Below, piece after piece: positions 11,841-58,355 of a DNA stretch of 64,000 nt; position 1 is the stretch's first letter; every line of letters begins with the position of its first letter. The position numbers and the translations under genes were made by a program. Origin of the DNA: Ischnura elegans (Eukaryota > Arthropoda > Insecta > Odonata > Coenagrionidae); assembly GCF_921293095.1 (NCBI RefSeq), contig NC_060258.1, positions 1,736,001 through 1,800,000 on the forward strand, read 5' to 3'. A model generated the notes under the pieces. That model had not been told where the DNA came from and searched no databases. It was given only the letters and a program-made list of their open reading frames with translations.

Positions 11841-11924
11841 TACAATAGATTAAAAGTTACATCGTCAGTGTGGATACACAAAATACATTTTTTTCATTTA
11901 AAAACAAGAAAACAAATAAAATTC

Positions 11925-13713: not shown

Positions 13714-13717
13714 TTAA

Positions 13718-15952: not shown

Positions 15953-15956
15953 TTAA

Positions 15957-17358: not shown

Positions 17359-17432
17359 GATAACTTATCAGGAAATCGATAATATACAAAAATATAAAAA
17401 AAACACATATATATAGGAAAAAAAATCTTTCT

Positions 17433-17513: not shown

Positions 17514-17639
17514 GAGACACAGGCTATTTTTACTTTTTCCTTTTACCTTTTGTTCTTGGATGGGGGGAGAACCGGTTTCGGCTGTCTCGCCGAGCTGGTT
17601 TCTCTCCGACGTTCCGTGGGCGTTTTCTCGTAACGGGAG

Positions 17640-17715
17640 TTCTAAAAATAACTCTCGTCGCCTGCTGGTCTGGCCTCTGCAGCACGGGCTGCCAACCTTT
17701 GAGTGTTGAAGCCGC
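17640..17715 (-). other. Conserved inter-ORF block shared with LINE C
   Basis: On the sense strand this contains AAGGTTGGCAGCCCGTGCTG, then CAGAGGCC, followed some 30 bp later by TTATTTTTAGA. The same order occurs in LINE C at 37668-37735. GGCAGC and GCTGC can pair across CCGT, giving a small hairpin. It survives while neighbouring spacer DNA differs, so it may be functional RNA structure. Confidence 0.55.
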
Positions 17716-17863
17716 AGTCTATCAGCGTCAGACTCCTCATGCCATGCTTTACTCCTGCTTTCTTCAACCTGTGAAATAAAGAGAGACATTTTTTTGGGAT
17801 AATTGCCCTTCGTCTCTTCCCCCCCTCCCTTCACTTTGCAGTAAGCCTGCATTCTCTTTTTTT

Positions 17864-19318: not shown

Positions 19319-19369
19319 TTCTAAATCACTGGGTTGAATTCAAACTTATTCTTCGTAAGAAATTACGGA

Positions 19370-19403
19370 AGACAGGTTGCGTGTAAAACACGCAAGTCTG
19401 TCT
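19370..19403 (-). other. Hairpin upstream of LINE A ORF1
   Basis: AGACAG plus TTGCGTGT pairs with ACACGCAA plus CTGTCT across an AAA loop, with a small interruption. It lies about 50 bp before the ORF1 start. LINE C has ACGTGTGACACACGT at 36109-36123 in the matching position. Confidence 0.55.
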
Positions 19404-19479
19404 TAGCACCCTCCGCCTTACACTCCTTCCACTCAATTTCAAAGCGCACTTTCACTAGGAAGCCCGAGTAGCCTCGGCT

Positions 19480-19508
19480 CCCGGCGATCGCGAGCACGAT
19501 CGCCGGGG
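19480..19508 (-). other. 5' UTR GGCGATCG hairpin of LINE A
   Basis: CCCGGCGATCG pairs with CGATCGCCGGG across a six-base loop. Equivalent GGCGAT-type hairpins occur in the 5' UTRs of LINEs B, C and D, with different loops and arm lengths. Confidence 0.65.
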
Positions 19509-19589
19509 AGCAGTCGTCCTTGAGACCGTCGGTTGACGCAAAACAATTGCCTATCGGACCTCTCCGTAAAACATTTCCGTCCGCTTTGT

Positions 19590-19605
19590 GTATTCAACGT
19601 GGTAT
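19590..19605 (-). pseudogene. 5S rRNA fragment between LINEs E and A
   Basis: On the minus strand the 16 bp read ATACCACGTTGAATAC, matching arthropod 5S rRNA positions about 11-26. LINE E's 3' end lies on one side and LINE A's 5' end on the other. It corresponds to the 17-bp piece at 35927-35943 between LINEs B and C. It is too short to judge alone but is convincing by its repeated context. Confidence 0.75.
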
Positions 19606-19651
19606 TTTTTTCCACAGAGTTTTCCCTCTTTTATTTTTTATATAAAACGTT

Positions 19652-19738
19652 TGGAGGTCTGGGGATTCGAACGTCCGGCCACACACACTGCTCACCTCTT
19701 CTCCTCAGCCGGAATCCGATCCACCAGGCTACCGCAGC
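19652..19738 (-). other. tRNA-like module in LINE E 3' UTR, distal
   Basis: A box TAGCCTGGTGG (19721-19731) and B box GTTCGAATCCCC (19661-19672), with about 50 bp between them. It closely resembles the modules at 19939-20020 and 42156-42243, all sharing TAGCCT-GTGGATCG and GTTCGA-TCCCCAG. It lies on the sense strand of the LINE. Confidence 0.6.
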
Positions 19739-19938
19739 TCTTGCATTTACAACAGGAAAAAACTGACAAAATGCTTTTCAAGATCCATTTGGGCATTTTA
19801 AAGAGTTCTTTTCCAATTTAAACATTTATTACTTACAAAGAATAGAATTGTAGCATGTATTATTTCCACCTTGTAATTAAGTATCACATTTATCGCATTT
19901 CACTGAGATAATCTCCACGATTAAATTTTTATCCTGGG

Positions 19939-20020
19939 GACCTGGGGATTCGAACACCAGCCCAACTCACTCTCCCCTACTCACCAGTCGGTAGTCGATC
20001 CACCAGGCTACCCAGGGCGA
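19939..20020 (-). other. tRNA-like module in LINE E 3' UTR, proximal
   Basis: The second copy in the same 3' UTR has A box TAGCCTGGTGGATCG and B box GTTCGAATCCCC, with CCTGG and CCAGG strings at the outer edges able to pair. It has diverged from the distal copy, so the duplication is not recent. Confidence 0.6.
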
Positions 20021-20296
20021 CACAAACACATCACGTAACCACCCATTTCATTATTCTCACTCTATTGTGGTCTCTTTGTCCGTGACAAAACACTTTTCTA
20101 ACCACCAACCACAATTTCAAGAGACATCAGAATATACAGGAAAAACACTTACGATTATACTAAATTAAAATAAATAATTCATTTCATAAATACCCAACAC
20201 TGAACTGTATGGACAGATATATATAGATCAAATATTATATTCAGAGAGGTACAAACGATAATACAATAAAATTCCTTTTCCCAGAACAAAACACAA

Positions 20297-20719
20297 TTAA
20301 CATTGGTAAATTTGAATCAGGAAATCCCTTGCATCTTTGTTCAGTGCTTTAAATTCATCCTCTTTTACATTCTTATTCACTACAACATTCCATTTCAAAA
20401 TTTCATAACAATATCCTGCAATAATAAAAACCATTATCTCTGTCTTATACGATGGAAACAATAGGAAATCTATTTTTATCAGTCTGATACCATCTATATC
20501 ATTTTCACCAAATAAGTTTAAAGTTCTGAACGTTTTTTTTATTTTGTCCCATTCATTTTTTATCTTAGGGCATGTTATAAATTTATGTCTTAGTTCCTCA
20601 AGGGTATTGCAGTTTTCACAATTCCCTGTTCTGTCCAAACCTATTTTTTGAAGTTTTTCTTTTGTAGCTGCCAACTCATTTATCACATTGAAAATTGCCG
20701 GTTTGTAATCTATTGGCAT
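20297..20719 (-). pseudogene. LINE E ORF2 C-terminal fragment
   Basis: About 140 residues, including a zinc knuckle of the form CENCNTLEELRHKFITC and the motif IKIDFLLFPSYKTEIMVFII. These match the C-terminal layout of LINE A, B and C ORF2 (knuckle, then NFxLFPS and a hydrophobic stretch). The upstream RT is missing. The true end of the frame is the stop at 20297. Confidence 0.7.
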
Positions 20720-20822
20720 AGAAACTTTTTTAGATTACCCCAGTTTGGCAGTTGAGATAAGTTCTGTGATATTGAGCTTATAATCTTCCCTACTGTTTTT
20801 GTCCTTTCGTACGTGAGATGTA

Positions 20823-31043: not shown

Positions 31044-31055
31044 GCCAACGGCCAT
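31044..31055 (+). pseudogene. 5S rRNA gene 1, first 12 bp
   Basis: GCCAACGGCCAT is the start of arthropod 5S rRNA. LINE B follows. With the pieces at 35927-35943 and 42419-42515 it makes one 5S gene of about 118-120 bp after removing target duplications. Confidence 0.8.
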
Positions 31056-31138
31056 CCCTCGAGAGCGGACGTGTTTTGGCTGCACTCCCGGGAAGCCCGA
31101 ACACCTGAACTCTCCCGGCCGATAAGGCCGCTCCGACC

Positions 31139-31165
31139 GCCGATCTCGGTTCGCCGGCGATCGGC
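31139..31165 (+). other. 5' UTR GGCGATCG-type hairpin of LINE B
   Basis: GCCGATC pairs with GATCGGC across 13 bp that contain CGCCGGC. It lies about 85 bp from the LINE 5' end, in the place of similar hairpins in A, C and D. Confidence 0.5.
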
Positions 31166-31438
31166 ACTTGTTTTTTTCCGAACGTGTTTTGACGAACTCT
31201 TCAACATGTGATTTTGGCGTTGTGTTTTTGTGTCGAGGTGCTGACGGACGTTTCGTGTGACTGTTTTTTCCTTTTTTGTGCTATTTCCACAAGAAGTGTG
31301 TTTCTTTTTTCACGTGCTCGGTGAGTGGCAGAGGGTGCCACTATTCCTGCCTGCGCGCAGTCTGCGCCGGGCAGGGCTACTGACCGCACATGTGTTTTCT
31401 ACAAGTGTTTCTGCCCCCCCCAAAGTTCCATACGCACC

Positions 31439-32831
31439 ATGGAGGTGCAAAGAGTCAACACCCTTGTCATCGCTACCGATGACAAGAGTCGCTTTCCAAC
31501 GCCGCTAGAGGTCCACCTCTTCGTGAGGAGTACATTGGGCCTCGCGGCTGAAGAAGTCGTCGGCGTACAAATCGCCTTTAATCGAAGGATTATTTACTTG
31601 AAGTTGAAGGATGACGCAACCCTCAAAAGAATTCTGGAGAAGAGAACCAGGACGCTGCCCTTCCCTACGAACGCGGCGCGCGTCATGGACGCCACAATTG
31701 ACTCGGCGGAGGAGGCACCGGTCCTAGTGAAGGTAATGTGCCTCCCGCTTGAAATGCCTATCTCGGCGGTTATCGAGGAATTAAAGAGATTTGGTGACGT
31801 AAAGGCCTGCTGGGAGGGAGTATGGCGGGGAAAGGATGTCCTTTCGGGCACAAAAACAGGCACATTTTTCGCTAAGGTCGCTGTAAAGACGAACATCCCG
31901 TCTTACTTAGGCATCCGTGGGCACCGGGCCCTCGTATTATACGAAGGACAAAAGAAGACGTGCGCCCGGTGCCACGAAGAAGGTCATCTCCGGCGCAATT
32001 GCCCGCGAAATGACATCGGCCGCCGTTTTGCGGACGTCGCGGGAGCCGCAACTGCCGCCCCTGCCGAGGACGAGGAACTAGTTGCCGACATTGCCGGCCA
32101 GCTGGCCCTCATGGAGGATGACCCGGCTGTTTCCGGTGCCCTGCCCTCCAAACGACCCCCTTCCCCCTCTGCTATTGTCCCCGAGAGTGCCGCTGATTTT
32201 GCTAAGAAACAAAAGACGCACGACGGCACTGGCGACGGGACCTATTCGGCACCAGCCGGAAAGTTCCCCCCCCCTCCCCCAACGCGTGAAGGCCCCGGCC
32301 AGGGAAGAAAGGCAGCACATTGTGGCTTCCGTGACCGTGGTCCCCCCCCCCGAAGAATCCGCCTCGGACGACGAGGCAGTGGAAATTTCCGCTGCCACGG
32401 CCGTAGACGACACTGACTACGCCATCAAGGACAGCCCTTCTCAAATGGCAAGTGAACCAATTGAAATAAGCCTGGTTTCTTCCCCAACCTCGTCCGTGGC
32501 TTCCCTTTCCCCCCACCCCTCCCTCTCAGACCTCTCCCACATCAGCGAGAGTGCCCCCATCCCTTCCCCCACCCCCACCACCCAGGATGGGACGACGGTG
32601 GCCGACGAGACCGCCCCTTCCACTTCCAAGGCGGCCGACCCTCCCAGCGGGGGGGTAAGTGGCAGCGAGGCGGAGACGACGCCTGAACACAGCGGGAGTG
32701 ACGAGCCGACAAGCGACGCAGCGGAGACTTCCTCACGCCGCAGCCGCTCGCGATCGGGGTCCGCAAAAAGAAGATCGCGGCGAAAGAAAATGACGATCGC
32801 GCTCCGCAGCATGCCTGTTGACAGTTCGTAA
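31439..32831 (+). pseudogene. LINE B ORF1, RNA-binding protein, frameshifted once
   Basis: The start MEVQRVNTLVIATDD matches LINE D (MEINRTNTIVITTEE). Residues about 1-190 align with D. A CCHC knuckle, CARCHEEGHLRRNC, lies near residues 175-190. The C-terminal half is rich in P, S, T and E and probably disordered, ending in an R/S/K-rich tail. The frame changes once, in a C-run near 32270, after which the second frame continues to 32831. Otherwise the protein would be about 460 residues. Confidence 0.8.
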
Positions 32832-32856
32832 GTGTACTTGCCCACTGGCTTCCACA

Positions 32857-35585
32857 ATGATCTTTTTAACTCTAAATATTGCGGGGGTCCTTAACCCCCT
32901 TAAGATAAGCGTCATTATAAATTTTTTAAAATTTCATAATGTTGACGTTGCATGTTTACAGGAAACCATGGAGGGGGTGATCTGGCCTGACCCCCTCTAC
33001 CGGTCCTTCACCAATTGTGATGGGCCGGGCCGTGGCACAACTATTTTAGTTAAGACCGGCATTCCGGTTAGTAGTGTAAGATTCCACCCCTCTGGGAGAA
33101 TTACTTCCCTGCGTGTTTTAGATGTCCATGTGGTAAACGTCTACGCTCCCGCACATGTTGAGCGGAGGGTGGACAGGGATATATTTTTAAATGAAACACT
33201 GTTGCCATATTTGCATGTTTTTACAGGGAAAGCCATCCTCGCGGGGGATTTTAATTGTATTTATCGCGGGGAGGATCGCGAGTCTTCCCGGGGGAGGGTG
33301 GAGCCTCCGAGCCGGGCTTTTAAAGTTCTTATTGATTCCGTGTGTTTAACGGATACTTTTTTAGATTTTAATTCCGCCACCGTGCCTTTTACACGCACGG
33401 GCCCAACCTCGAGATCGAGAATAGACTTTCTGTTTTTATCTAAAGCCCTGAAATCCCTTCCCAGAACCCCTAATTTATTGCCGGTGTCCATTTCGGACCA
33501 CTGTGCCCTTTCCCTTGACCTCTCCCTTCCCCTCCCCCCCCTAACCCCGTCACCCCCACCTCCCGTTCTTGGTGCTTCGACACTCGTCTCCTGGAGGTGA
33601 GCGAGTGTCGCGAGGAAATCCGGGCGAAGGTCGCTCAGCTGGCTGACGCCTTCGACCCGGATAGTGATGTTGTGAAATGGTGGGAGGATGTTTTTAAGCC
33701 CAAAGTTATTTTAATGCTGCGCAACATCACGAGGCAGTGGCTAAGGGCCAAACAAAGGACGATTACTTTTTATCGTCAGGCACTCAAGGAGTTGATCCTT
33801 ACTGACCAGAGGCCCAGTAATTTCTATGCTATGCTGCGTGAACTAAAGAAAATCATTCTAAATCACGAGCTTGAGCGTTACTCCCCTCGCTTGTGGCAAA
33901 GGGAGTTGGAGCGAGATGGGTGGGGCCCTCTCACTCTTTCTGAGTTGAAACGAGTCATTAAAATCAAAAACAGAGCCGCCACTGCCTCTATTAAGCGACT
34001 TCTGCCTGAGGCAGAGAACCATTTTAAACGCACCTACGACCGCTACCCTGCCTGGAGTGAGGAGCTTTGCCCCCCACTCCCTGTCCTGCTCACCCTCACA
34101 GAAAGAGACTCTCTCGAGCTCGAGAGCGCGATCCAAGGGGAGGAGGTGGAGCTGGTTCTTCGCTCCCTCCCCAAGGGTAAGTCACCCGGCTCGGACGGCT
34201 TGCCGTATGAGTTTTATTCTGCATGCTGGGATATTTTATCACCCGTGTTGACGCGGATTTTTAATGTTTTTTATCTGTCCGGCGGCGAGTTGGCTCCAAG
34301 TCAGCGGACCGCCGTGATTACTTTGTTGCCAAAGACTGATCGGCCTAAGTCGTGTAACGATCTGCGGCCGATCGCCCTCCTTAACTGTGATGTTAAAATT
34401 TTTACTCGCATTTTAAAATCTAGAATCTCGGCCGTTGCCGATTTGATTTTACACAAATTCCAGTATGCGGTATCTAGTTTAAGAAGCATCCTGGATGCAA
34501 CGGCTTTGTTACGAGATCTTTTAAGAGTCAAGATCCTAGGTATATGGTGGGAGAAATCAGTTCCCGCCATGCTCGACCGTAATTGGGGAGAGGTCCTTAA
34601 GACCATAAGATTTAATGTGGGTAAATATACTTGTGTTTCCCTGCCCCTGACGGCGAGGGTTGGAATCATAAATACTTTGATTTATCCCAAGATTTGGTAT
34701 GTGGCACACACTTTCCCATTGACACGAATACACCACGCACAACTGATTAAACACACAAACAATATGATATGGCATAAAATGCCGCGTAAAGTTAGACGGC
34801 AACAGTTGTATCTTACTCGGAGTAAGGGGGGGCTTGACCTAATTAATGCCGACTTAAAATCGCGGGTTATCTTTTGTAAGATAACTTTCAGGGTTCTGGG
34901 TGGGGACTCGCCGGAGAGGAGTGCGTTGTTGAAGGCCGCTTGGGCCGCCGGCAGCGCCGCCTCGCACGAGTTTAAAAGATCGCTCGCATCAGCGCGGGCG
35001 ATCGCCGATCTTGTTCGCCCGGGCGAGGCATTCCAAGTCAAGCGTTTGTACGCGAGGGTTTTAGGGGAAGGGGAGGGAGGCCCTGCGCCCCCCTCCGCCA
35101 ACTCGTGGAGGAACTGGGCGGCATGTGGGGTGGAAGAGAGGGTGGCAAGCGCGATGTTCGGCGTGATTGCGGGCCTTCTGCCCACAAGGGTTAATCTATT
35201 TAATATGAAGGTTGCCACCTCGCCTCTCTGCCCTGCATGTAACCACATGGACGACCTGCCACACCATGTCCTCGGCTGTGGAGATAGTCCGAGGGCATGG
35301 AAGGCAATTAAATCGATTTTATTTTTTTTAGATTCCTTTGGAAGTTGTGCCCGGCTGGATGATTTTAATCTAATGACGCTTAATTTTAAACTCTTTCCTT
35401 CCTTCAAAAACTATGTTCTTTCGGCCATAATAAGTAAATTCATCTTTCTTCTTCTTAATAAAAAGCCAGTGGGTAAAGGCCTTTTGGGCTTCGTCACTAC
35501 GGCGTCGTTTGCGGGCGCTCTACCGCACTTCCGGAATTTCCTTAAGGAAATATTTCTGGAAGTTGTTGAGTTCGACCCCGGCTAG
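32857..35585 (+). pseudogene. LINE B ORF2: endonuclease plus RT remnant
   Basis: Starts MIFLTLNIAGVLNPLKI. Endonuclease motifs ACLQETM, VNVYAPAH, LAGDFNCIY and ISDHCAL lie within the first 220 residues. A frame change near 33595 leads into the pre-RT and RT (GKSPGSDGLPYEFYSACW, RPIALLNCDVKIFTRILK). At about 34528 the text jumps from ALLRDL to KILGIWWEKS, skipping the part with the YADD-type site that LINE D keeps. The thumb and a C-terminal knuckle (CPACNHMDDLPHHVLGC) follow, ending at 35585. No RNase H. Confidence 0.85.
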
Positions 35586-35926
35586 GCTGCCAACAAAAAA
35601 AAAAAAAAAGTGTGTGAGTTTCTACCCCATTCCAGAAAAAAAAATAAACAAGTGAAATGACATTGACTTTTTCATCCTAGAAGATATGGGCCTGATATGT
35701 TTTTGACTTTTTGTCCTCACATTAAGCACCCCAGTGCCGTTTGGGGTTCATAGCAAGTTTGCCCATTTATTTTTTATGTCTTTTCAAATAACTTTCTCAA
35801 TTTATTTGTATTTTCTTTGGCCAGAGATGCCTTTTTATTTTATTTTTTATTGCTTTTCTTTCATTTTCTAAAGTGTTTTGAAATTTGTTGTACTCTGTGA
35901 ATTATGACTAATAAAACCTTGTGAAT

Positions 35927-35943
35927 CATACCACGTTGAATAC
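35927..35943 (+). pseudogene. 5S rRNA gene 1, middle piece
   Basis: CATACCACGTTGAATAC, 5S positions about 10-26, squeezed between the 3' end of LINE B and the 5' end of LINE C. Its last five bases, AATAC, are repeated at 42419-42423 after LINE C. Confidence 0.85.
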
Positions 35944-36023
35944 GCGAGGCGAGAGGACGTGTAGAGAGAGAGCTCCCGATCGTGTTTTGTTTTTCGTGGA
36001 TTTCGGAGAACCGGTTCGGAAAG

Positions 36024-36053
36024 CCCCGGCGATCGCACCCTGCGATCGCCGGG
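36024..36053 (+). other. 5' UTR GGCGATCG hairpin of LINE C
   Basis: CCCGGCGATCGCA pairs perfectly with TGCGATCGCCGGG across CCC, a 13-bp stem. It corresponds to 19480-19508 in LINE A, with different loop and inner pairs. Confidence 0.7.
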
Positions 36054-36108
36054 AGCCTTGCTGAGTGCGGGCTCGGACAGTTTTGCGACCTTGTGACGCG
36101 ACTAAAAA

Positions 36109-36123
36109 ACGTGTGACACACGT
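36109..36123 (+). other. Hairpin upstream of LINE C ORF1
   Basis: ACGTGT and ACACGT pair across GAC. It is about 45 bp before the ORF1 start, as in LINE A. Confidence 0.45.
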
Positions 36124-36169
36124 AAGTGTGTTTTAACAAGTTTAAACTCTAGTGCAACAGGGGTTAGCC

Positions 36170-37479
36170 ATGGAATACCCAAAGGTCAACACCCTATGTT
36201 TGGAGTTTGAGAAGAATTTTGAAGCACCACAGCCCCTAGAGATCCATGATTTCATCATGTCAGAGCTCGGGGTTCGATCCGAAGAGGCAGTAGCGGTAGT
36301 AATAACAAACAAAAGAAGAACGGTTTTTTTTTGAAATTGAAGACGGAGGGAAAAATGGAAGAAATACTCGCCGCAGGCGAGTCAAGGAAGATGGGCAACA
36401 GGGAGGTTAAGATCACATCGGCGAGTAGAAGAGTGACAATTGTTAAAGTTCACCTGCTGAATATCGAGGTACCGAGGGAGGAGGTGTTGAAGGCACTTGC
36501 GCCTTACGGAAAGATAATCGACTACCAATTAAACACTTGGGCTGGTCCCAAAGCGTTAGCGGGCACTTACACGGGTGCCCGCAGCGTCAAAATGGAGTTG
36601 ACAAAAGACATCCCGTCGTATCTACAGGTGGCTAGATACAGAGCAGCAATATATTATTACGGGCAAAAGCCGACGTGCTCTAGGTGTGGGGAGACATCAC
36701 ATTTGAGGATAAACTGCCCACTTATACTAAGTGTGGGCACCAACTCTACATACGCCGAGAGGGTGAGGGGGGAAGATCCAATGGAAGTGAGTGACATAGG
36801 TAAAGAACAGACTCAAATGGAAGAAGAAGTGGAGAGAGCGGTGCGGGAGCAAAGCGAGAACACGCAGGAAGAAGAAGAAACCAAGGGGGGAAACATCCCG
36901 GCGGTGGAAGAGCAACAAGGGACTGAGAACAAAGTAGACAAGAGTGACATCGAAGAAGTTTCGGGGGGGAGTGGAAAAACAGAGGGTGCAGGAGCTACTC
37001 CGGAAGCAGTGAATATGGAGTCGGACAATAACACAACACGAAGAAGACGAAAAAGAAACAGCGGAAGGCGAGGCAAAAGAAAAAATTCAACGTCGCCGAC
37101 AGGGTCGGGAGGAGGCACAGAAGAGGGAGAAAGGAACATAGACGACTCTTCGTCAAACACATCAAATGCTGAAATGGAGGTCGAGGAAATAATTATAGAA
37201 GACGAAGAAGACAAGGAAGAAGAGACCGAAACGAAAGAGGGATGGACCGTTCCCAAGACCTCATTCCCCGTGCCGAAAGGTTTTACTTTCACCATGGGGA
37301 GGGAGACTGACGAAGAAACAACAGAAGAAGAAGAAGAACCAGGAGCAACAAGAAGGGGGCAGATGAGTTTACATAGACTGACAAAACTACAAAGTGAAAC
37401 AGAAACACTTAAAAAAGCATTTCTTAAACAGAACACTGATTCCGAAAAGAGAGAGCCAAATAAAACGAAAAAACACTAG
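36170..37479 (+). pseudogene. LINE C ORF1, one frameshift
   Basis: Starts MEYPKVNTLCLEF and aligns with LINE A ORF1 through the first 190 residues. The knuckle CSRCGETSHLRINC lies at about 36675-36716. The C-terminal part is acidic, with KRRRKRNSGRR basic stretches. One frame change in a T-run near 36330 separates the first 54 residues from the rest. Full length would be about 435 residues. Confidence 0.82.
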
Positions 37480-37659
37480 GCACAACAGAAATGAAAGACA
37501 GAAAATCACACATAAATTCGGGGGGGTTGGGGGAAAAAGGAAAAGTACGCTGTACTGATATCAATTTCTCAAAATTTATTACAGGACAAAAGATGCAGCC
37601 TTGCCAGGGGAGCGGAAACGGGAGCACGAAGTCCGGTGAATCGACGAGAGCTGAGATTC

Positions 37660-37740
37660 TACACACCAAGGTTGGCAGCCCGTGCTGCAGAGGCCGGAGC
37701 AACACGACACCGAGGGCTATTTTTAGCCTCAGAGTCGGAG
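37660..37740 (+). other. Conserved inter-ORF block shared with LINE A
   Basis: Contains AAGGTTGGCAGCCCGTGCTG, CAGAGGCC and, further on, GCTATTTTTAGCCTCAGAG, in the same order as LINE A 17715-17640. In C the last string forms its own stem, GGCTATTTTTAGCC. Confidence 0.55.
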
Positions 37741-38021
37741 AAATCCCGTTACGTGACCCACTTCGGTGCGAGGAATGTCGAGCAGCGGGAACAAAGCAGG
37801 CTGACACATCACAATGGCGAAGCAAAGGCAAGAAACGAGAATGTGTTTTGATAAGATACAACTATGCACTAATGTTTAAAATAGAAAATGCAAATCGGGT
37901 TTTATCTGTATGTTCGATGTTAATGACCATAAGGTATTCCTATTACGGGTTCAATTTAAAAACAAATGAACACGAAAAAGTAAGAGGGAGTTTTAAGACC
38001 AAAAATATAGTGTTTGCCTCA

Positions 38022-38100
38022 TGTGCCCAGTTAGCCCAGGGGATGTGTCGCGGGCTACTGCCAAGACCTGTGGGAAAACGCAGGTTCGAACCCAGGCAAG
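38022..38100 (+). other. tRNA-like module 1 in LINE C spacer
   Basis: A box 38031-38042, perfect B box GGTTCGAACCC at 38083-38093. The arms pair only partly by eye. It recurs at 38277-38355 and 38532-38610. Confidence 0.6.
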
Positions 38101-38276
38101 GACTTTCAAAGATGTGTTGTTTACGCTCAATTTTCTTTCTAAACTTTGTATCTTCCTTTTGTCCTTTATTGGTATTAATGACCATAAGGTGTTCTTATTA
38201 CGAGCTCAATTTAAAAACAAATGAACACGAAAAAGTAAGAGGAAGTTTTAAGACCAAAAATACAGTGTTTGCCTCA

Positions 38277-38355
38277 TGCGCCCAGTTAGCCCAGGGGATG
38301 TGTCGCGGGCTACTGCCAAGACCTGTGGGAAAACGCAGGTTCGAACCCAAGCAAG
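38277..38355 (+). other. tRNA-like module 2 in LINE C spacer
   Basis: Second copy, 255 bp downstream of the first, with both boxes unchanged. Confidence 0.6.
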
Positions 38356-38531
38356 GACTTTCAAAGATGTGTTTTTTACGCTCAATTTCCTTTCTAAATT
38401 TTGTATCTTCCTTTTGTCTTTTATTGGTATTAATGGCCATAAGGTGTTCCTATTACGAGCTCAATTTAAAAACAAATGAACACGAAAAAGTAAGAGGAAG
38501 TTTTAAGACCAAAAATACAGTGTTTGCCTCA

Positions 38532-38610
38532 TGCGCCCAGTTAGCCCAGGAGATGTGTCGCGGGATACTGCCAAGACCTGTGGGAAAACGCAGGTTCGAA
38601 CCCAGGCAAG
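38532..38610 (+). other. tRNA-like module 3 in LINE C spacer
   Basis: Third copy. Its A box has one change (CCAGGAGATG). The B box is intact and lies about 125 bp before the ORF2 start. Confidence 0.6.
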
Positions 38611-38730
38611 GACTTTCAAAGATGTATTTTTTACGCTCAATTTTCCTACTAAATTTTGTATCTTCTTTTTGTCTGTTATTGGTTTTCTCCTTTTCACGAT
38701 ATGATGGTAAACTTATATCACGTCAAAACA

Positions 38731-41700
38731 TTCATGAAAATCGTAACATTTAACACAGCGGGTATTATAAATCCTGCAAAAATAAACATAGTGATAAACA
38801 CATTTAAAACACTACAAGCAGATGTAATATTATTACAAGAAATCCATAGAGACGCTGTCTGGGCTGATCCCTGTTATAAAACTTACGAAAATTTTGGAGA
38901 TGGCCCTTTGGGAATTTGCATCTTAATGAAACACGCACTACCAGGAACGAATATAAGATACCATGAATCCGGAAGGATCCTGAGCATCATGCACAAAGAC
39001 ACAACGATAATAAACGCCTACGCACCATCAGGATGTGAAAAACGTAAAGAAAGGGAGATCTTCTTCATGGAAACTTTAACTCCTTATATGCAATGCTTTC
39101 ACAAAAAAGCGATTTTGGGAGGAGACCTAAACGCAATCTACAGGAAAAATGATAGCAGTGCAAACACAGAACAGACCAAATACCAAATTTCTCAACCTCT
39201 TAAAACCCTAGTAAACAGTACACAGGCAATTGACACCGCATTACATATAAACGGAGACAACCCCGGATACACAAGAGCAGGTCATACATCTCAAAACAGG
39301 ATAGACTATATATTTACCTGAAAGCAGCTAAAACAGAACATTTTAAACCTACAAACACACCCGATGTCCACATCCGACCACTCAGCGCTAATTCTCACCT
39401 TAAATAACCAAACCTCAGCCACCGTGAAGAAGAGACCAAGAACATGGAGGATGGATGATAGGATACTCAAATCACCAGAAGCCCGGAAGGAAATAAGCAT
39501 CCAAATTTTGAGGCTCCTCAACCACCCAGCAGTAGATGGTGATACGGCCATCTGGTGGGAAAAAACTTTCAAACCCAGCATCACCAAACTCTTGCAGAAG
39601 ACAACAAAGGAGATGTACGAAGCAGAAACAAACACAATAAACTTCTACCGGGAATTACTAACAGACAAAATCAACAATAACGGAAGCAAGGAATATGACA
39701 CAATAAAAAACCTAAAACAAAAAATACTGGAACTAGAGATAAAAAAATATGCAGCTAGGGGATGGCAAAAAGAAATTGAAAAGGACGACTGGGGACCTAT
39801 AACCCTCGCCACGCTAAAGAAAAGCATAGAGATAAAACAACTCACCCAACCCACCCTCGAAGACGGGAGAGAGATGAGCCCAGCAGATTTCATCGACGCA
39901 GCGGAAGAACATTTTAAACAACAATATAATAAATACAATCTATGGAATAATAGTTACATACCGCCTGACACGATACACGAACAACTAACCCCGGAAATCA
40001 AAGACCAATACAACCACAAAATAACCGAACATGATATAGAAGACGTAAGGGATAAACTGAAGAAAGGAAGATCCCCTGGCCCGGACGGCATCCCTTATGA
40101 GTTTTACCTCACATTCTGGAAAGAACTCAAACCAGCCCTCACCAAGATATTAAACCACCTACAGGAGAACGGCCCAACAGAAAGCATGAAGATGGCAATA
40201 ATAACTTTAATACCTAAGATAAGAAACCCGAAAAAGGTACAAGATTATAGACCTATATCACTCTTGAACACAGATTATAAAATATACGCACACATATTAA
40301 AAAACAAAATAGAACCTCTAACCACGCAGCTCCTACACCATAATCAATATGCTGGAATCAAAAATCGAAAAGTAACAGAAGCAACCACAACCCTCAGGGA
40401 TATACTGATCTCAGCCCCAGGAGTCACGGATACTAGACCAGGTATCCTTGCAATAGATCTAGAAAAAGCCTTCGATAACATACGTGTTGAATGGATTCTA
40501 CATAACATGGAGAAAATGAACCTGCCCACCACACTAATAAAATCTGTGAAGAACATATACTCAAACATCTCCGCGCGGATCCGATACCGTGATACCTTTT
40601 CCAAAAAATTCACAGTTACAAACTCAGTGCGGCAAGGATGCCCACTGTCAATGCTACTATATGCAATAGCACTGGACCCTATCATCAGAGAATTCAACAA
40701 AAAGAAAATTGGAACACACAGAAGAGGAGAACTCTGATCCACAATTGTCTATGCAGATGACATCACAATACTCACAAAATCCGAGGAAGAATTACAAACA
40801 ACAAACGAAATCTTAAAGAAATACCAAACAATAGGCATCAAGATTAATAGAACAAAATCAAAACTCCTTCCTATAAAACAAATTGAGAACACTCACAATT
40901 GGACCATTGCAAACTCTATAAAAATTTTAGGCATGATCTGGGAAAAAGACATAAACGCAACCATTAACAAAAACTGGAATGTAGCAACCAATATAATAAA
41001 GTGGCAGTGTGGAAGCCTATATTTTGAACAGCTCCCGATTGCAGCGAGAGTGAAAATAGTAAACCAGCAGATTTACCCTATTCTCTGGTTCTACGCTAGC
41101 ACTTGGCCACTCCCAAATAAGCACAATGCAACAATAATAAAAACCACAAATAACTTCATCTGGAAAGGCTACATAATAAAAGCACCAAGACCTAGACTTT
41201 ACATGCCATACGAAAAAGGAGGCCTAAAACTAGAGGATGCCAGCACAAAAGCTAAAATCATTTATCTAAATAACTTATGCAAAATATACAACACAGGAAA
41301 TAGAACAAGAATCAACATACTGGATAGCGCAATAGATCATGGTAGTAGGAACCCACATTTGAAAAATGTCAAGGCAGAGATCAAGAAACAACGTGACAAA
41401 ACAGGATACGCATACAAGACAGTTAAGGAAGAATACGCAAAAGAGATAGAAGACAGAAGTAAAACCCTGGGGACCCCACTACCAGGGGCCAGAGCCTGGG
41501 GAAACTTTGGAAAAGCAAAGCTGACAACGGAACAAAGAAGCCATCTCTTCGGCATTATGAGCAAGACTAATGTGACAAACGAAATGAGGTACAAGTGCGG
41601 CATCACAAAATCTCCAACCTGTGAAAAATGTCAAGACACAGAAGACGTTGAACACAAAATTCTAGGCTGTACAAGGAAAAACATCTTCTGGCACAGGTTA

Positions 41701-41958
41701 AAGGCCATACATAAGAAATGGGACACCTTTGGAGGAGGGAACATATCCAACAAGGACTTGATGAACTTAAATTTCCACATCTTCCCGTCTTCGAAGAGAG
41801 ATGCCCTTGTCGGTTTAATTGCCACCTTCATAAAAGTAAGTCTAGAGGAGAAAATCAGAAAGAGTAATTACATAAGCCGAATTACAGATTACATCAACAA
41901 CATACCATACACAGACATTAGACATGAATTGAAACAGGAGTTTATACCATTATTTTAA
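38731..41958 (+). pseudogene. LINE C ORF2, near-intact endonuclease-RT (~1075 aa)
   Basis: One reading frame from MKIVTFNTAGI to the end, interrupted only by TGA at 39319-39321 and TGA at 40735-40737. Endonuclease: LLQEIH, INAYAPSG, LGGDLNAIY, STSDHSAL. RT: KLKKGRSPGPDGIPYEFY, RPISLLNTDYKIYAHILK, LAIDLEKAFDNIR, SVRQGCPLSMLLYAIALDP and catalytic YADDI just after the second stop. The C-terminal knuckle is CEKCQDTEDVEHKILGC near 41620-41670. No RNase H. The second TGA falls where LINE A has CGA or similar (Arg), fitting decay at a CpG. Confidence 0.9.
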
Positions 41959-42155
41959 AACATCCTTTAAACACTGCATCCTTTTCTCGAAGGGAAATTT
42001 CAATTTTAATAAATATTTTAAATGTGTGACTGTGTTGAGCTAAATGCTGAATATGTTATTTTATTTTTCACGATTTTTGTATAGTGTTTTGTAATCTCGT
42101 AATATGTGAATTTGTGAAAATTTTTGTTGCTCGGGTTACTATCCCGAATATAAGA

Positions 42156-42243
42156 GCAGTGCTAGCCTAGTGGATCGACGTCCGGCTGGTGAGGGGAGAG
42201 TTTGCTGTGTTCGGCCGGACGTTCGAGTCCCCAGGCCTGTGGG
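42156..42243 (+). other. tRNA-like module in LINE C 3' UTR
   Basis: A box TAGCCTAGTGGATCG (from 42163) and B box GTTCGAGTCCCC (from 42221). It is the same type as the two modules in LINE E's 3' UTR and lies about 175 bp before the LINE end. Poly-A-like runs follow. Confidence 0.6.
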
Positions 42244-42418
42244 AAAGGAAAAAAAAAAAAGAGAAAGAATTTTGTTTTTGGATGATCGCAAACCTAGTGG
42301 TATCATATGTCCTTTATGTCTTGTTTATAAAAAGAAGTCTAATTTCAAATGTTAAAAAAAAAAAAAATTTTTGTCTGTAATGTTTTGTGGAAAAGAACAA
42401 TAAAAAAAATTTTGAATC

Positions 42419-42515
42419 AATACACCGGTTCTCGTCCGATCACCGAAGTTAAGCTACGTCGGGCCCGGATAGTACTTGGATGGGTGACCGCCTGGGAACA
42501 CCGGGTTCTATTGGT
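42419..42515 (+). pseudogene. 5S rRNA gene 1, 3' part
   Basis: From AATAC the sequence runs ACCGGTTCTCGTCCGATCAC, through GGGCCCGGATAGTACTTGG, to GGGAACACCGGGTTCTATTGG. This covers the expected Pol III internal control region (A block, intermediate element, C block) but is cut from its start by two LINEs. Several bases near the end differ from the copy at 49558-49655. Confidence 0.9.
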
Positions 42516-42517
42516 AT

Positions 42518-43686
42518 CACTTTTTAATTTTTTCTCCTTATCATAATGAGAACGAATTACACTTTTCCGTCGAAATTTATGCATAGAAGGGTTTGCATAA
42601 CATTTTGTTTTACGCACAATGGAAATACTCCCATTTCCTACGAAAGAAACCATTTCAAGTCGCACCGTTCACTATTACCTGTTTTGGCGTTGGGAGAGAA
42701 AAATGAAATCACAAAAAATATGTACACTGCGAAAAATATTTTTTTCCACGAAAGATGAAGACGATTTTGCACACATTGCATTATAAGCAAATATTTCTGT
42801 ATCAGATGTGCTGCATTCTTAATCCATTTCATCAGAAACCAGCCTTTACACCGTCAAGCCCGGATAATGTAGATGAAGAAATTGGAACGCCAAAGATTAC
42901 CTTCCTCGAAATTACTCCCTTACGAGAAAACTCCTTTTCCTATCCGCATAACATAATCTCCTACTGCCGACAAATTTCTTTCAATAAATGAGTGCATAAT
43001 TTGTGCTATATCGATCATAAAACAGTCGAACAACAACAGGAGACATTTACCAAGCCATTAAAGCTGAAATAAATCGCCATTACACCTACAAGCACATGGT
43101 TTCTATAGACATTTTTCAGACACTTATGTTCAAAGATGGAAATGGGAGAGAGATGAATTACATCAAGGAAAATGTATCAATATGGGGAAAAACATTTTGT
43201 TCCACGAACAATGGAAACGATTTTTTACACGTTGCTTAACCAACAAATAGCATAAAACCATCAAGCCCGGAAAATGTAGATGAAGAAATTGGAACGCCAA
43301 TATATGTTTCTAAACATTATTCCCTTAGAGGAATACTCACTTTTAATATACGCATTACATAATTGCCAACTACTTTCTTTCGATAAATGAATCGTCTGTT
43401 ACATAGATCACGAAACAGTCGAACAACCGGAGACATTTACCAAGCGATTGAAGCTGAAGTAAATCGCCGCTACACCAACAAGCACACCGTTAATGCAGAC
43501 ATTTTTCATAAACAAATTTTCAAAGATAGACTGCATGAAATGCCGGAATAGAGAATTGCTTAAGCAACACGCAACTGAAAATGATAACTATTGAACAGAA
43601 ATGAATGCAAATACAATCGCGAAGAAACCAGATCTCCCGTCGACTCTCAAGTCATGATAACTTTTTAAGGATTCCGTCATGTACTC
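42518..43686 (+). other. 5S rDNA intergenic spacer
   Basis: The DNA between two 5S genes in the same orientation. Its first ~90 bp (GAGAACGAATTACACTTTTCC onward) align with the start of the spacer after gene 2 (49686 onward). It contains a duplicated segment of about 407-bp period (TCAAGCCCGGATAATG at about 42854 and a variant at 43261). No gene is seen. Confidence 0.7.
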
Positions 43687-43697
43687 GCCAACGGCAT
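43687..43697 (+). pseudogene. 5S rRNA gene 2, first ~11 bp
   Basis: GCCAACGGCAT, one C short of the usual start. LINE D follows at the same 5S position as LINE B in gene 1. Confidence 0.7.
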
Positions 43698-43789
43698 CTT
43701 GAACAGAGCGGACGTGTTTTGAGTGCTCGGATAGTCCGAACCCAAGATAAGACTCCCGGCCGGGAGGCCAACCTCGGCCACCCGCGCGA

Positions 43790-43818
43790 GGCGACTATCG
43801 CCCGTTCTGGCGATCGTC
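43790..43818 (+). other. 5' UTR GGCGATCG-type hairpin of LINE D
   Basis: GCGACTATCGCC faces GGCGATCGTC across CGTTCT, pairing with one mismatch or bulge. A second palindrome, CTCCCGGCCGGGAG, is at 43753-43766. Confidence 0.55.
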
Positions 43819-44116
43819 TTTTTTTTCTGTGTTTGACGATCCGGAAATTTTTTCCGAAGCAACCATGTGATTTTGTGATTTTCTTCTACTGACCTACGGG
43901 CTATAGTTAGCCATAGTGAAACAGTTTTTTTTTTGTTTTCTTTAGTTATTCTACGAGTGGTGTTTTAGTTACATTTTTGTGTTTGGCGAGTAGCGGAGTG
44001 TGCCCGCCCCTGCCTGCGCGCAGTCTACGCCGGGCAGGTTTCTCATCAGTGATCTCTTTTTCTTTCTCCCCATTTTGTTTGGTGATCTTCCCCCCCAATG
44101 TGCTCATATAAGTGTG

Positions 44117-45564
44117 ATGATGGAAATCAATCGCACTAACACGATCGTCATAACGACGGAGGAAACGGCGAGATTCGCTACGCCGCTGGAGGCGCACCTT
44201 TTTTTCAAGAAGACGTTGGGCCTCGCGGTGGAGGATGTCGACGGGATACAAATCGGCTACAACCGAAGGAATATCTATCGGAAGCTAAAAAATGAAAATA
44301 TTATGAAGAAGATTTTAGAGACGAAGACGAAAACGCTGCCATTTCCCACCCAGGAGGGGAAAATTATGACGGCTAATATAGACTCCACGGACGACGCCCC
44401 AGTCTTGGTCAAAATCATGTGCCTGCCGCTCGAGATGCCCATCGCGGTGGTCACCGACGAGCTCAGGCGTTTTGGCGAAATCAAGTCATGCTGGGAAGGG
44501 GTGTGGAGGTGCAAGGACCTCCTCGGTGGCACCAGAACCGGCACCTTTTTGTGAAAATGGTGATTAAAGCAAACATCCCCTCCTACCTCAATTTCAGAGG
44601 CCACAGGGCCCTGATACTTTACGAGGGGCAAAAGAAAACATGTGACCGGTGCCACGAGGAGGGCCACATTCGTAAGAACTGCCCGCGAAACGACTTTGGA
44701 AGACGTTTTGCGGATGTGGCGGCCCGTTCCCCCTCTGCACCCGCTGACGATGAAGAGATAACGGCTGATATCGCCCAGCAACTGTCTACGATGGAGGAAG
44801 AACCGTCGAAGCCTGTCCCCCAGAACCCGAAGAGACCCCCTTCCCCGGCTGACATCGTCCCTGAACTCAACCCCGAGAGCACCAAAAAGCAAAAAAAAGC
44901 TGACGATGCCCCAAAGGTCCCATACTCTACGCCCATAGAACTTCCCCCTCTCCCCCAACGAGTGCCGGCCCCTGACCATGCGGAGCGTCATGTCTTCGCG
45001 TCTGTTCGGGTCATCGAGTCTCCTGACCAGCCGTCCGATGACGAGGGCGACCTAAAGCCCCCCAAGGAAGTGCCGACTGACACCAGTGGTGCGGAACCAA
45101 CCTCAGAGCACGTGGAGGATTACGCAGTGGAACATGAGGGTGAAACAATCGAAGATCCTTTTACCCCGGACGAGGCAATTACCATCAGCCTCGTCACTTC
45201 CACTTCCCCCTCCACCTCCCCTATCTCCCTTTCCCCTCACAGCTCCCTCTCCGACCTCTCGCATGTCAGCGAGAGCGACCCCATCCCATCCCTAACCCTC
45301 AACACGGCGGAGCCAGGCGACCGGCAGGCGACGACCTCCCCCTCACGCTTGCCGTCCCGGGGGGCTGTCCATCCCAGCGGGAGCCTAAGTGGCAGTGATG
45401 GCGAGCCGGAGCGGGGTGTGAGAGAAGGTGGAAGCAGCCAAGAGCAGCCGACGGGTGGCCACGGGCGACGCAGCCGATCCCATAGCGGGTCGTCGAGACG
45501 AAAAAGAACGAACAAACAAAAGAAGAACGACGTGCACTCCCAACCAAGTTCACCCCTCACGTAA
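44117..45564 (+). pseudogene. LINE D ORF1, one frameshift
   Basis: Two ATG codons in a row at 44117 and 44120, then MEINRTNTIVITTEE. It aligns with LINE B ORF1. The frame changes near 44552 (GTRTGTFL, then VKMVIKANIPSYLN). The knuckle CDRCHEEGHIRKNC is near 44643-44684. The C-terminal half is rich in P, S, E and D, ending with an R/K/S tail. Full length would be about 480 residues. Confidence 0.8.
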
Positions 45565-45587
45565 GTTCGTCTTCCCACTGGCCTGTA

Positions 45588-48500
45588 ATGAAAATTCTCT
45601 CTTTAAACATTGCGGGGATTTATAATCTCCTTAAGATAAATTTAATTCTGAATTAAATTAAAACACAAAACATAGACATTGCATGTTTACAAGAGTCATT
45701 AGAGGGGATCGTTTGGCCTGACCCCCTCTACCGGTCCTTCGCCAATTGCGACGGGCCGGGCCGAGGTACAACTGTTTTAATTAAATCCGGGCTTCCGGTA
45801 AGCAATATTAGATTCCACCCCTCAGGGAGAATAACCTCCCTAACGGTATTTGATATCCATGTGGTAAACGTCTACGCTCCTGCGCATGTTGAGCGGAGGG
45901 TGGACAGGGATTTGTTTTTAAATGAAACACTGTTGCCGTATTTACATGTTTTACTGGGAAAGCCATTCTCGCGGGGGATTTTAATTGTACTTATCGCGGC
46001 GAAGATCGTCAATCTTCCCGCGCTCGTGTCGAACCTCCGAGCCGGGCTTTTAAAATTTCAATAGATTCTGTGTGTTTAACAAATAGTTTTTTAAATTCTA
46101 ATTCCGACACCAAACCATTCACGCGCACGGGCCCAACAACGCGCTCGAGAATTGATTTCATCTTTCTATCCAGAGCCCTTAAATCCTTTCCTGGAACCCC
46201 TTATTTATTGCCAATGTCCCTCTCCGACCACTGTGCCCTAATCTTAGACCTCTCCCTACCCCTACCCTCCCCCACCCCGGTCACTCCTAATACAACTCCT
46301 TTCTGGCGTTTAGATACTCGCCTCTTAGAAATGCCTGAGTACACGGAGTTAATTAGGGCGAAGATAGTTCAGCTGGCTGACTCCTTCGACCCAAACAAGG
46401 ATGTAATCATATGGTGGGAGAATTTTTTCAAGCCCAAGGCTACCCTCCTGTTGAAAAAAATGTCCAGGCAGTGGAGAAAACGAAAAGAGGCCACAATCAA
46501 ATTCTATAGGTCGGCTTTGGAAGAAATCATTACCTTGCCTCGCCGGCCTGATAATTATTACGCCATGGTGCGAGAACTAAAAGGCATCATTCTATCGCAC
46601 GTAATCGCTCGCTACTCTCCTCGCACCTGGCAGCGGGAGATAGACAAGGAGGAATGGGGCCCGCTGTCCCTCTCCGAACTCAAGCGAGTGATAAAAAAAA
46701 TAGACACTCCACTGCAAACATAGATCGCCTCTTAAGCGAGGCGGAGGGACATTTTAAAGGCATTTACGACCGCTACTCTGCTTGGAGTGATGCACACTGC
46801 CCCCCACTCCCCGTCCTACCCACGCTCCCGCATGATGAATCTCTCGAGCTCGAAAGCGCGATCCGAGGGGAGGAGGTTGAGTTAGTCCTCCGCTCCCTCC
46901 CCAAGGGTAAGTCACCCGGCTCGGATGGGCTCCCCTACGAGTTTTATACTGCATGCTGGGATATTTTAACTCCCGTATTGACGCGGATTTTTAATTTTTT
47001 ATGCTTCCGGCGGCGAGCTGGCTCCAAGTCAGCGGAACGCTGTGATTACTTTACTGCCAAAGAAAGATCGGCCGAAGTCGTACAACTATTTACGGCCGAT
47101 CGTTTTACTAAACTGTGATATTAAAATTTTTATTCGAATTTTAAAAAACAGATTCTCGGCCGTTGCCGATTCGATTTTAGATAAATCCCAGTATTCAGTC
47201 CCTAAAGAACGTAGCATCCTGGATGCTTCGGCTTTGCTGAGAGATCATTTTATCACGCCAAACGAAAATTTCTTTTATTGTGTCTTAGCTATGGATATTA
47301 GCAAAGCCTTTGATTTTATAAGGATCGAGTTTATTTTAACTGCTTTAAAACGAATGGCTTTTCCTGACGTTTTTATTAATGTAATTAAATTATTATACAC
47401 AGAAGCCACGGCGTGTCTTCGGGTTTGGGGAGGGTTTTCAGGGCCCTTTTCAATTCAGAATTCAGTCCGTCAGGGGTGGCCCTTTCCATGGCTCTCTTTG
47501 CAGAGGCCATGGACCCTCTAATTAGAGGATTACAGCTGGCGGGGTTGGCATTGAGCGTTTTGGCTCAAAGTTTACCGAAATTGTGTTCGCCGATGACATT
47601 ACTCTTTCCATCGACGACCACTAGCAGATGGCAACTCCTCGTGAAGTAATCGAGGAGTACACGGCGGGGGAGTGGAAATTAACCACGTAAAAAGTAAGGC
47701 AATCGTCTTACAAGGGACACCCCCGTCTAATCCCTGCTGGAAGGTGACGCAGGATCCAGTCAAAATTCTCGGTATATGATGGGAGAAGCCAATCCTCGCC
47801 ATGCTCGAGCATAATTGGGATGAGGTCCTTAAGACAATAAAGTTTAATATTGGTAAATATACTTGTCTCCCCCTGCCCCTGATGGCTAGGGTTAAATTAA
47901 TTAATACTTTGATTTATCCGAAGATCTGGTTCGTGGCACACATATGGCCACATACACGAAAACACCATGCACAAGTCGTTACACTCACAAATAACATGGT
48001 GTGGCATAAAATGCTACGCAAGGAGAAACGGCAACAGCTGTATTTTGGTCAAGATAAGGGGGGCTTGACTTGATAAATGCCGAAGTAAAATCTCGAGTGA
48101 TCTATTGCAAGATCGCTTTTAGGATTCTGGGTCGGGACTCGCCGGAGAGGAGTGCGTTGTTCAAGGCGCCATGGGCCGCCGGCAGCGCCGCCTCTCACGA
48201 GTTAAGAAGATCGCTCGTATCAGCGCGGGCGGTCGCCGATTTTATTTGCCCGGGCGAGGCATTCACAGTCAAGCGCTTGTACGAACGGGTTTTAAGGGGA
48301 GGTGAGGGGGGTTCTGCGCCACCCTCCGCCAACTCGTGGAGGAACTGGGCGGCATGCAGGGTGGAGGAGTGTGTCGCTAGTAATATGTTTGGCGTGATTG
48401 CGGACCTTCAGCTCACGAGGGTAAGTTTACATATGATGGGACTGCCTGACACTCCCCTCTGTCCTGTGTGTTACCACATGGACGATATGCCCCACCATGT

Positions 48501-48813
48501 CCTTTGCTGTGGGGATGGTCCGAGGGCATGGAAGGCTACCAGAGATATTTTTTTATTTAGACTCCGTTTTTTGTTGTGGCCGGCTTGATGATTTCAAACT
48601 TCTGACTCTAAATTTTAAATTATTTCCTTCTTTTAAAACAAATACTCTTTCTGCCATCATCTCTAAATTTTTTTCTTAACTCTGCATAAAAAGCCAGTGG
48701 GAGAAGGACTATTACGTTTTATGATGTGTGCACCACTATCTGGTGCACCGCCGAACTCTCGTTCATATCTGAAAAATGTTTTTATTGACATTGTTGATCA
48801 TGATCCTGGGTAG
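45588..48813 (+). pseudogene. LINE D ORF2, decayed endonuclease-RT
   Basis: Starts MKILSLNIAGIYN. Motifs recognisable in order: VNVYAPAH, SLSDHCAL, GKSPGSDGLPYEFYTACW, AMDISKAFDFIR, NSVRQG, VFADDI near 47588, GIWWEK-like GI/WEKP near 47770, and a C-terminal knuckle CPVCYHMDDMPHHVLCC near 48460-48510. It is spread over all three frames with stops. It shows what LINE B has lost (from about 47240 to 47760). Confidence 0.82.
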
Positions 48814-49159
48814 TGTTATACCCAAACTGGAATAAAACAAAAACATTCCTAGTGCTAAACTTGAACTCATTAAATAGTGATCTCCTTACCACTAAATTCC
48901 TATGAACTGTATTTTTAGACTGCAATCCCATATGAAAGATTCTTTTTCTATGCTCATTTTTTGCTTATTATTGTGCTCATTCCTTTCCTTTCTTTTTGCT
49001 CCTTCAGGGCTTATAAAACAAAAACAAGCAATTGTTAACGCCTTCAGATTTTGAATTGTTTTTTATATGCAATTCTCCTTTCTTTTTTATTTAAGCAATA
49101 TTCGTTTCTCATGAATTTATGTACTTTTTAAAAACTTGAAATAATAAATACCTTGAATA

Positions 49160-49557
49160 AAAAAAACGGCTAAGTGGTTACCGCATGCGGCCATTGAGAT
49201 GTAGATAATAAGTTCGATTCTCACATGCAACATTATTTGTTCTGTATTTTTGATTTTTAAAATTCTGGTTTATTTTCTCTTTCTTCATTTTATGGTTTTC
49301 ACTTGACTAACTTATTTTCTGTACCAAATAAAAACAATATTTATATTTATTTAGATAAGTGTACTGTATTATAATAAAAAAATTGATGTAATGACATATA
49401 CCTATTTTTTTCTTTTTTGTTTTCGCAAACTACACATTACAAATCCAACGTATGTGACAACTTTGTTTAAATTAATGATGAAAACCAAACCCATTGAAAA
49501 TACCTTTGTATATTGTTTTATAAAGAAAAGATACCAATAAAAAAATATTTGAAACAA
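49160..49557 (+). mobile_element. LINE F: 3' UTR fragment of an A/C-type LINE
   Basis: It ends CAATAAAAAAATATTTGAAACAAT directly before 5S ACCGGTTC, close to the end of LINE C (CAATAAAAAAAATTTTGAATC before AATACACCGG). It begins with a tRNA-like module. There is no coding part, so it would be a strongly 5'-truncated insertion at 5S position about 26. The identification rests on the end sequence and position. Confidence 0.5.
49165..49230 (+). other. tRNA-like module in LINE F fragment
   Basis: A box GGCTAAGTGGTTACCG and B box AAGTTCGATTCTC. It differs from the LINE C 3' module, so different tRNA-derived sequences occupy the same place in related 3' UTRs. Confidence 0.5.
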
Positions 49558-49655
49558 TAAACCGGTTCGATCTCGTCCGATCACCGAAGTTAAGCAACGT
49601 CGGGCCCGGATAGTACTTGGATGGGAGACCGCCTGGGAACACCGGGTGCTGTTGG
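49558..49655 (+). pseudogene. 5S rRNA gene 2, 3' part
   Basis: ACCGGTT, an extra CGAT, then CTCGTCCGATCACCGAAG and the rest to GGTGCTGTTGGTAT. Better conserved at the 3' end than gene 1. The internal control region is nearly complete. The start is separated from it by 5.9 kb of LINE DNA. Confidence 0.88.
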
Positions 49656-49657
49656 TA

Positions 49658-58344: not shown

Positions 58345-58355
58345 GCATAGGCACG

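Follow-up and report, generated by a model that had tools for sequence, protein, structure and literature searches.

The 5S rRNA gene of Ischnura elegans is the target of a clade of LINEs with AP-type endonucleases that appears to be specialised on this gene, which itself lies in histone-gene repeats. Several families from three lineages occupy two sites in the gene, after positions 12 and 26, and one of the lineages has members at both. The genome holds 5S genes in every state, empty, occupied at 12, at 26 or at both, and several young families share one gene within the histone repeats. The arrangement of motifs around the junctions suggests that a pol II core promoter is probably split between the 5S gene, which would provide the initiator, and the LINE, which would provide the MTE and DPE elements.

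The window is the whole stretch of 64,000 nucleotides that was analysed (C13:1736001-1800000 in the 1.72-Gb assembly of 110 contigs). In its 5S genes, LINEs B and D and the 3' end of LINE E join the 5S sequence after position 12, and LINEs A and C and the 3' end of F join it after position 26. The first-pass annotation had proposed a plan for each of these loci, and all were borne out. On the plus strand, gene 1 begins with 5S 1-12 (31044..31055; direct reading and pattern search), followed by the decayed LINE B of the B/D lineage at position 12 (31056..35926; direct reading and an Exo_endo_phos match), 5S 10-26 as CATACCACGTTGAATAC between LINEs B and C (35927..35943; reading and pattern), LINE C at position 26 (35944..42418; direct reading and an RVT_1 match) and 5S 22-119 (42419..42516; reading and RF00001). 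The repeated target letters of gene 1 are CAT (10-12) and AATAC (22-26), and the ORF2 of LINE C is a single frame interrupted by two in-frame stops. Gene 2, on the same strand, starts with a 5S 5' end that is one base short, GCCAACGGCAT (43687..43697; direct reading), and continues with the decayed LINE D at position 12 (43698..49158; its 3' end set by likeness to the end of B), the LINE-like 3' end F, which joins 5S at about 22 (49159..49555; judged by eye against the 3' end of C), and 5S from about 22 to the end (49556..49657; reading and RF00001). The 3' parts of both genes are matched by the Rfam family RF00001. Because gene 2 lacks 5S 12-26 between LINE D and F, the 3' junction of D and the 5' end of F are not visible. 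The motif GGACGTG is found on the plus strand near the starts of LINE B (31067-31073), LINE C (35955-35961) and LINE D (43710-43716).

The minus-strand locus holds a 3' fragment of LINE E with the ORF2 C-terminus and 3' UTR (19605..20819; reading), 5S 12-26 as TACCACGTTGAATAC between E and A (19590..19604; reading and pattern) and LINE A, which is inserted at position 26 and keeps its 5' end (11850..19589; reading). LINE A is interrupted by unrelated DNA at about 13.7-15.9 kb and its 3' end is lost at the edge of a satellite; the 5' junction of E is not visible and a 755-bp repeat adjoins the fragment. This repeat is present at 20820-21574 and 30289-31044 (97.6% alike), truncating LINE E and adjoining the 5' end of the 5S piece of gene 1. 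The satellite-like array occupies positions 1-11850 of the window with a period of 3,240 bp and GGCGGCTTCGCCGCC hairpins. The LINE copies of the window are decayed, unlike the near-identical copies in the arrays.

The window also contains a B/D-type ORF1 fragment directly downstream of the 5S of gene 2 (49746-50020), pieces of a Pao/BEL-type LTR element on the minus strand (51081-60623; Peptidase_A17, RT, RNase H and DUF1759) and a Tc1/mariner-like transposase with helix-turn-helix matches (23147-23899, minus strand). The interval between ORF1 and ORF2 of LINE C carries three tandem 255-bp repeats (37920-38684) that are 93-95% alike. Blocks with A-box and B-box-like letters resembling tRNA were noticed in the 3' UTRs of C (42152-42238, plus strand), of E, which has two (19655-19742 and about 19930-20010, minus strand), and of the LINE of locus L022 (about 2020-2100). 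Those of C and E are similar to each other by BLAST, and none of the blocks was identified as a tRNA gene. ARAGORN found no tRNA in the window, and with relaxed settings the candidates listed included only poor overlapping ones in the 3' UTR of C.

The occupancy of 5S genes across the genome was monitored with a 17-mer of 5S 10-26, which gave 91 matches with up to one mismatch against 9 for the reversed control. The pattern requires an intact 5S 10-26 and about 60 nt beyond were read; insertions inside 5S 10-26 or far downstream are invisible to it. Of the 91 matches, 72 were assigned to a class, with small contigs contributing 38 and large scaffolds 34; the 19 left out were six CATACCACGTTGAATCC sites in contigs C60, C74 and C97 and 13 on large scaffolds. 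A genome search with the RF00001 model gave at least 47 hits for 5S. Among the 38 array genes of the small contigs, 30 were read and eight were taken as empty from full-length 115.5-bit RF00001 hits, bringing the empty genes to 20 (12 read, 8 inferred). A LINE at position 12 was found in 11 (six E-type and five D-type) and a LINE at position 26 in seven (five C, one C' and one H), and none of the 38 was doubly occupied, an absence that is no more than suggestive (P 0.07 if the 11 and the 7 are independent). On large scaffolds, 15 of the 34 loci carry LINEs at both positions (two in the window, L045, L048, L052 and L072-L081); in eight of these 15 the position-12 LINE was judged from its 60-nt A-rich end only, and seven match B or E of the window. 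The other scaffold loci comprise six with a LINE at 26 only (L040, L046, L047, L049, L050, L051), one with a LINE at 12 only (L022), two empty genes (L019, L039), three partial 5S sequences (L041-L043), one unrelated sequence (L084) and six LINE starts outside 5S genes (L038, L082, L083, L085-L087). Two of the partial sequences, L042 and L043, share a break after about 5S 40 into the same other sequence (tacgctactcaataaagt...), and may represent a 5S-headed repeat.

The insertion of LINEs inside 5S genes at two fixed positions, as first proposed for the window, thus agrees both with the window junctions and with the 72 classified genome matches. After position 12 the 3' side of the 5S resumes at 10 to 12, and after position 26 it resumes at 22 where seen; junctions scattered along the 5S, which would have spoken against fixed sites, were not seen within the reach of the pattern. 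The claim that one 5S gene can hold two different LINEs was likewise confirmed at many loci. The further claim, that this is so at every 5S locus, stood for the decayed loci of the window and failed genome-wide, where 20 of the 38 array genes are empty. As the double genes are found on scaffolds and none in the arrays, double occupancy appears to be a trait of dispersed, mostly old copies.

Within a family, the array LINE ends at position 12 agree at 97-99.9%. When about 1.5 kb of the 3' ends is compared, identity is 98.6-99.5% among the five D-type copies (L027, L029-L032), which finish in GAAT|CATACC, and 97.3-99.9% among the six E-type copies (L028, L033-L037), which finish in a run of A followed by TACC. 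Young D-type and E-type elements, of which one copy each was read at the 5' end, start with ACCGGACGGACGTGT after GCCAACGGCCAT, with array spacer upstream. Among the 11 array genes occupied at 12, all but the gene at C79:51214 show the succession of GCCAACGGCCAT, 7 nt and GGACGTG, about 5.8 kb before the 3' junction, and so these 10 LINEs look full length. Where enough flank was read, the array 5S genes have an H2B motif about 1.1 kb upstream, and motifs of H1, H3, H4 and H2A were found in L011, L014 and L025. This histone-repeat setting was seen in L001-L008, L010, L011, L014, L021, L025, L026, L053-L064, L066 and L067, and a histone 3' stem-loop was matched below cut-off in L055 and L056. 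In several histone repeats there is another 5S gene, of variant sequence, at a distance of 10,183 bp. Linkage to 45S rRNA was not found in ten array loci. The 28S-specific R1/R2 elements were considered as candidates and rejected, the insertions being in 5S and no large rRNA match being present in the window or the ten array loci.

The domains of the inserted elements were searched and their relationships were worked out from two trees. PF03372 (Exo_endo_phos, AP-type endonuclease) was found in pieces of B and D and RVT_1 in A and C, as well as in B below cut-off. This combination of AP-type endonuclease and RT is one that the Tx1 clade (L1 group) has too, a clade without a reference in the RT tree. 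The best solved relative of C was LINE-1 ORF2p, and for B the structure 8c8j, an entry named RNA-directed DNA polymerase, came just ahead of LINE-1 ORF2p. A putative zinc knuckle (CCHC), CxxCxxxxHxxxxC, was read by eye in the ORF1 of A, B and D; Pfam gave no family for the ORF1 pieces. The named database relatives came from Aedes, Periplaneta and Ladona, and one designated ‘Putative tx1-3 aae’ of Aedes albopictus (27%) was within the best 120 database hits; these names and the 5S sequence are consistent with an arthropod origin of the DNA. The scans of IMG/VR with the RT of C and with the junction plus DPE pattern found nothing.

In the RT tree, the seven LINEs included from the window and the arrays all group in one clade, apart from 103 database relatives, with a support of 0.995; the 103 are the relatives kept from 120 after dropping those with 600 or fewer aligned residues, and E was left out with its 118 aligned residues. 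The ORF1 tree, from which L038 (33 residues) was left out, divides the elements into three lineages, B/D at position 12, A/C at position 26 and E2 (12) together with H (26), with dividing splits of 0.98-1.0. Both trees were made from alignments anchored to one sequence and were rooted at the midpoint. The first-pass annotation had counted two lineages, and the trees correct this to three, with the E2/H lineage present at both positions; H and E2 are 50-52% alike. These relations indicate that the insertion site has changed at least twice.

The 5' ends of the LINEs were compared with core promoter motifs, using Drosophila rules for the Inr, DPE, MTE and +24 position, which may not be those of the host. 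The DPE-like motif was scored as RGWYVT and the initiator as YYANWYY. RGWYVT was present at LINE base 12 in 25 of the 28 distinct position-26 5' ends that remained after L084, which is not a LINE, was removed from 29; the exceptions were window A, L051 and L087. With stricter removal of duplicates it was present at base 12 in 21 of 24 ends, and of the 30 offsets tried, none of the remaining 29 gave a full match. The motif varies as GGACGT, GGTCGT, GGTTGT, GGATGT and AGACGT, and the LINE starts that carry it span lineages about 30% alike in ORF1. Base 12 of the LINE is +28 when A11 of the 5S is +1, and 5S 9-15, CCATACC, agrees with YYANWYY at 7 of 7 letters, the sole such match in 13 nt of spacer and 5S 1-31. 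The MTE consensus fits best at base 2 (+18), where the match is partial with a mean of 8.08 of 12 in the 24 ends, and G was found at +24 in 19 of these. In addition, the first 35 nt of most position-26 families contain a second conserved, GAGCTCC-like block, which follows the DPE-like motif at a distance of about 10 nt.

When the gap was left free between 0 and 30, all 13 genome hits at position 26 had gap 11, with 0 hits for the control. The search at position 12 gave 29 hits against 0 for the control: gap 7 in 13 hits, including the array families and the L022 element, gap 11 in 12 hits, of which eight were shown in letters and four of these are the start of B, and four further hits that are all position-26 LINEs, with no other gaps otherwise. 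The gap of 7 sets +1 at A(-7) of the array spacer, in ACATATC, which agrees with the initiator at 6 of 7 letters and is one of three such 6-of-7 sites in the scanned stretch. The gap of 11 sets +1 at -3, which is A in both window copies and stands in poor context (AGACGGG, GTACTCG).

We propose that endonuclease cleavage would fix both sites and that a split pol II core promoter would keep them. At position 26, the 5S would give the initiator CCATACC with A+1 at 5S A11, and the LINE would give a DPE at +28, an MTE-like stretch from +18 and the G at +24. The LINE RNA would then have 5S 11-26 at its start, identical to the target immediately before the insertion point, and such a start could help in placing the 5' junction. 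For the young position-12 families, the DPE spacing would set +1 on the spacer A(-7), which is the weaker part of the proposal. Since a B-type LINE at 12 leaves TCATACC, the position-26 LINE of such a double gene keeps its initiator; E-type LINEs at 12 leave AAATACC and spoil the initiator of the second LINE, and such doubles are nonetheless common, which counts against the proposal. As the promoter would be whole only at the right insertion point, target choice and promoter function would become one constraint. If the target completes the promoter, copies elsewhere would be silent unless the 5S leader comes along, and selection would thereby enforce the site. What keeps site-specific LINEs faithful to a single base of a single gene is a question still open in the field. 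The split promoter, if true, would account for the retention of these sites, for the convergence of divergent lineages on them, and for the presence in one small gene of two LINEs, both perhaps transcribed.

LINE starts outside 5S genes bear on this proposal. In L082, L083, L085, L086 and L087, the start of a position-26 LINE is preceded by 5S 11-26, and the 60 nt upstream of this leader, read in five of the six outside starts, are non-5S and unlike a LINE end. In the sixth, L038, a leader of 5S 10-26 stands behind 1.5 kb with no 5S or match to the LINEs at hand. The pattern by which these copies were found detects longer leaders and not ones shorter than 5S 11-26. Leaders of this length would arise from LINE RNA that began at A11 and was copied elsewhere.

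The same observations could come from ordinary site-specific LINEs, in which both sites are set by nothing but the endonuclease, the conserved 5' motif acts in the RNA (packaging, translation or a ribozyme), and the outside leaders derive from RNA that was begun further upstream or processed close to position 11. We consider this possible though distinctly less probable than the split promoter. AP-type site-specific LINEs are known that have no promoter supplied by the target, and the GAGCTCC-like block is not accounted for by the promoter model. The motif, however, varies in the way that the DPE consensus permits and has the canonical spacing to a perfect initiator, and when eight loci containing LINE starts were scanned with Rfam, no ribozyme was among the five matches (E up to 1).

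Segmental duplication of a small number of doubly occupied genes could also have produced most of the double genes. Over 2.9 kb, B|C of the window agrees with that of L048 at 98.3%, B in L045 and in L052 is 98% alike up to the junction, and E|A of the window and L078 and L079 are alike on both sides, as such copying would have it. Yet L045 and L052 have another position-26 LINE after the same B, about 60% alike to C in amino acids, and L072-L077, L080 and L081 add further pairings, with one upstream end joined to different LINE starts (L073, L081), which makes duplication an improbable source of most doubles. An artefact of assembly or chance might be feared because the arrays sit in small unplaced contigs; it is hardly credible when identical junctions recur in many contigs and on large scaffolds, and when the 91 matches face 9 in the control and the 13 and 29 gapped hits face 0 and 0. 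The split promoter at two fixed 5S sites is the reading that we prefer.

Mutsu, a LINE that targets 5S genes, is reportedly the subject of papers by Kojima and Fujiwara in 2004 and by Locati et al. in 2017. Those main papers aside, the portions of the literature on Mutsu, Dada-5S and Tribolium that we drew on mention neither several lineages at two 5S positions nor a promoter shared with the target. In the excerpts that describe it, Mutsu is a zebrafish LINE, about 5.5 kb long and with two ORFs, whose targets are 5S rRNA genes (PMC11202950, PMC3706591). The LINEs of I. elegans resemble it in targeting this gene, inside which they insert at fixed sites, and they may differ from it in their three lineages, two positions, some double genes and apparent completion of a promoter. 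The Jockey-like LINEs of Tribolium freemani are, from the part of the report used here, also regularly associated with insect 5S genes, where they interrupt satellite arrays between the genes, whereas those of I. elegans lie inside the gene at a fixed base (PMC11202950). Keno and Utopia are given in the section consulted as two unrelated LINE groups at the same site of a small RNA gene, that for U2 snRNA; their target is another one, Utopia has a restriction-like endonuclease, and the I. elegans LINEs form one clade (PMC4640811). Dada-5S of fish also targets 5S, and is described in the extract at hand as a group of DNA transposons that have a transposase and duplicate 6-7 bp of the target, unlike the LINEs found here (PMC8869645). 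According to the portion seen of a study on LINE promoters, insect LINEs often use a DPE, usually at about +28 to +32, and the 5' ends of Drosophila jockey, Doc, F and I and of Trypanosoma L1Tc have it at about +25 to +32; these elements start at their own first bases, whereas the initiator of the I. elegans LINEs would lie in the host gene (PMC4748587).
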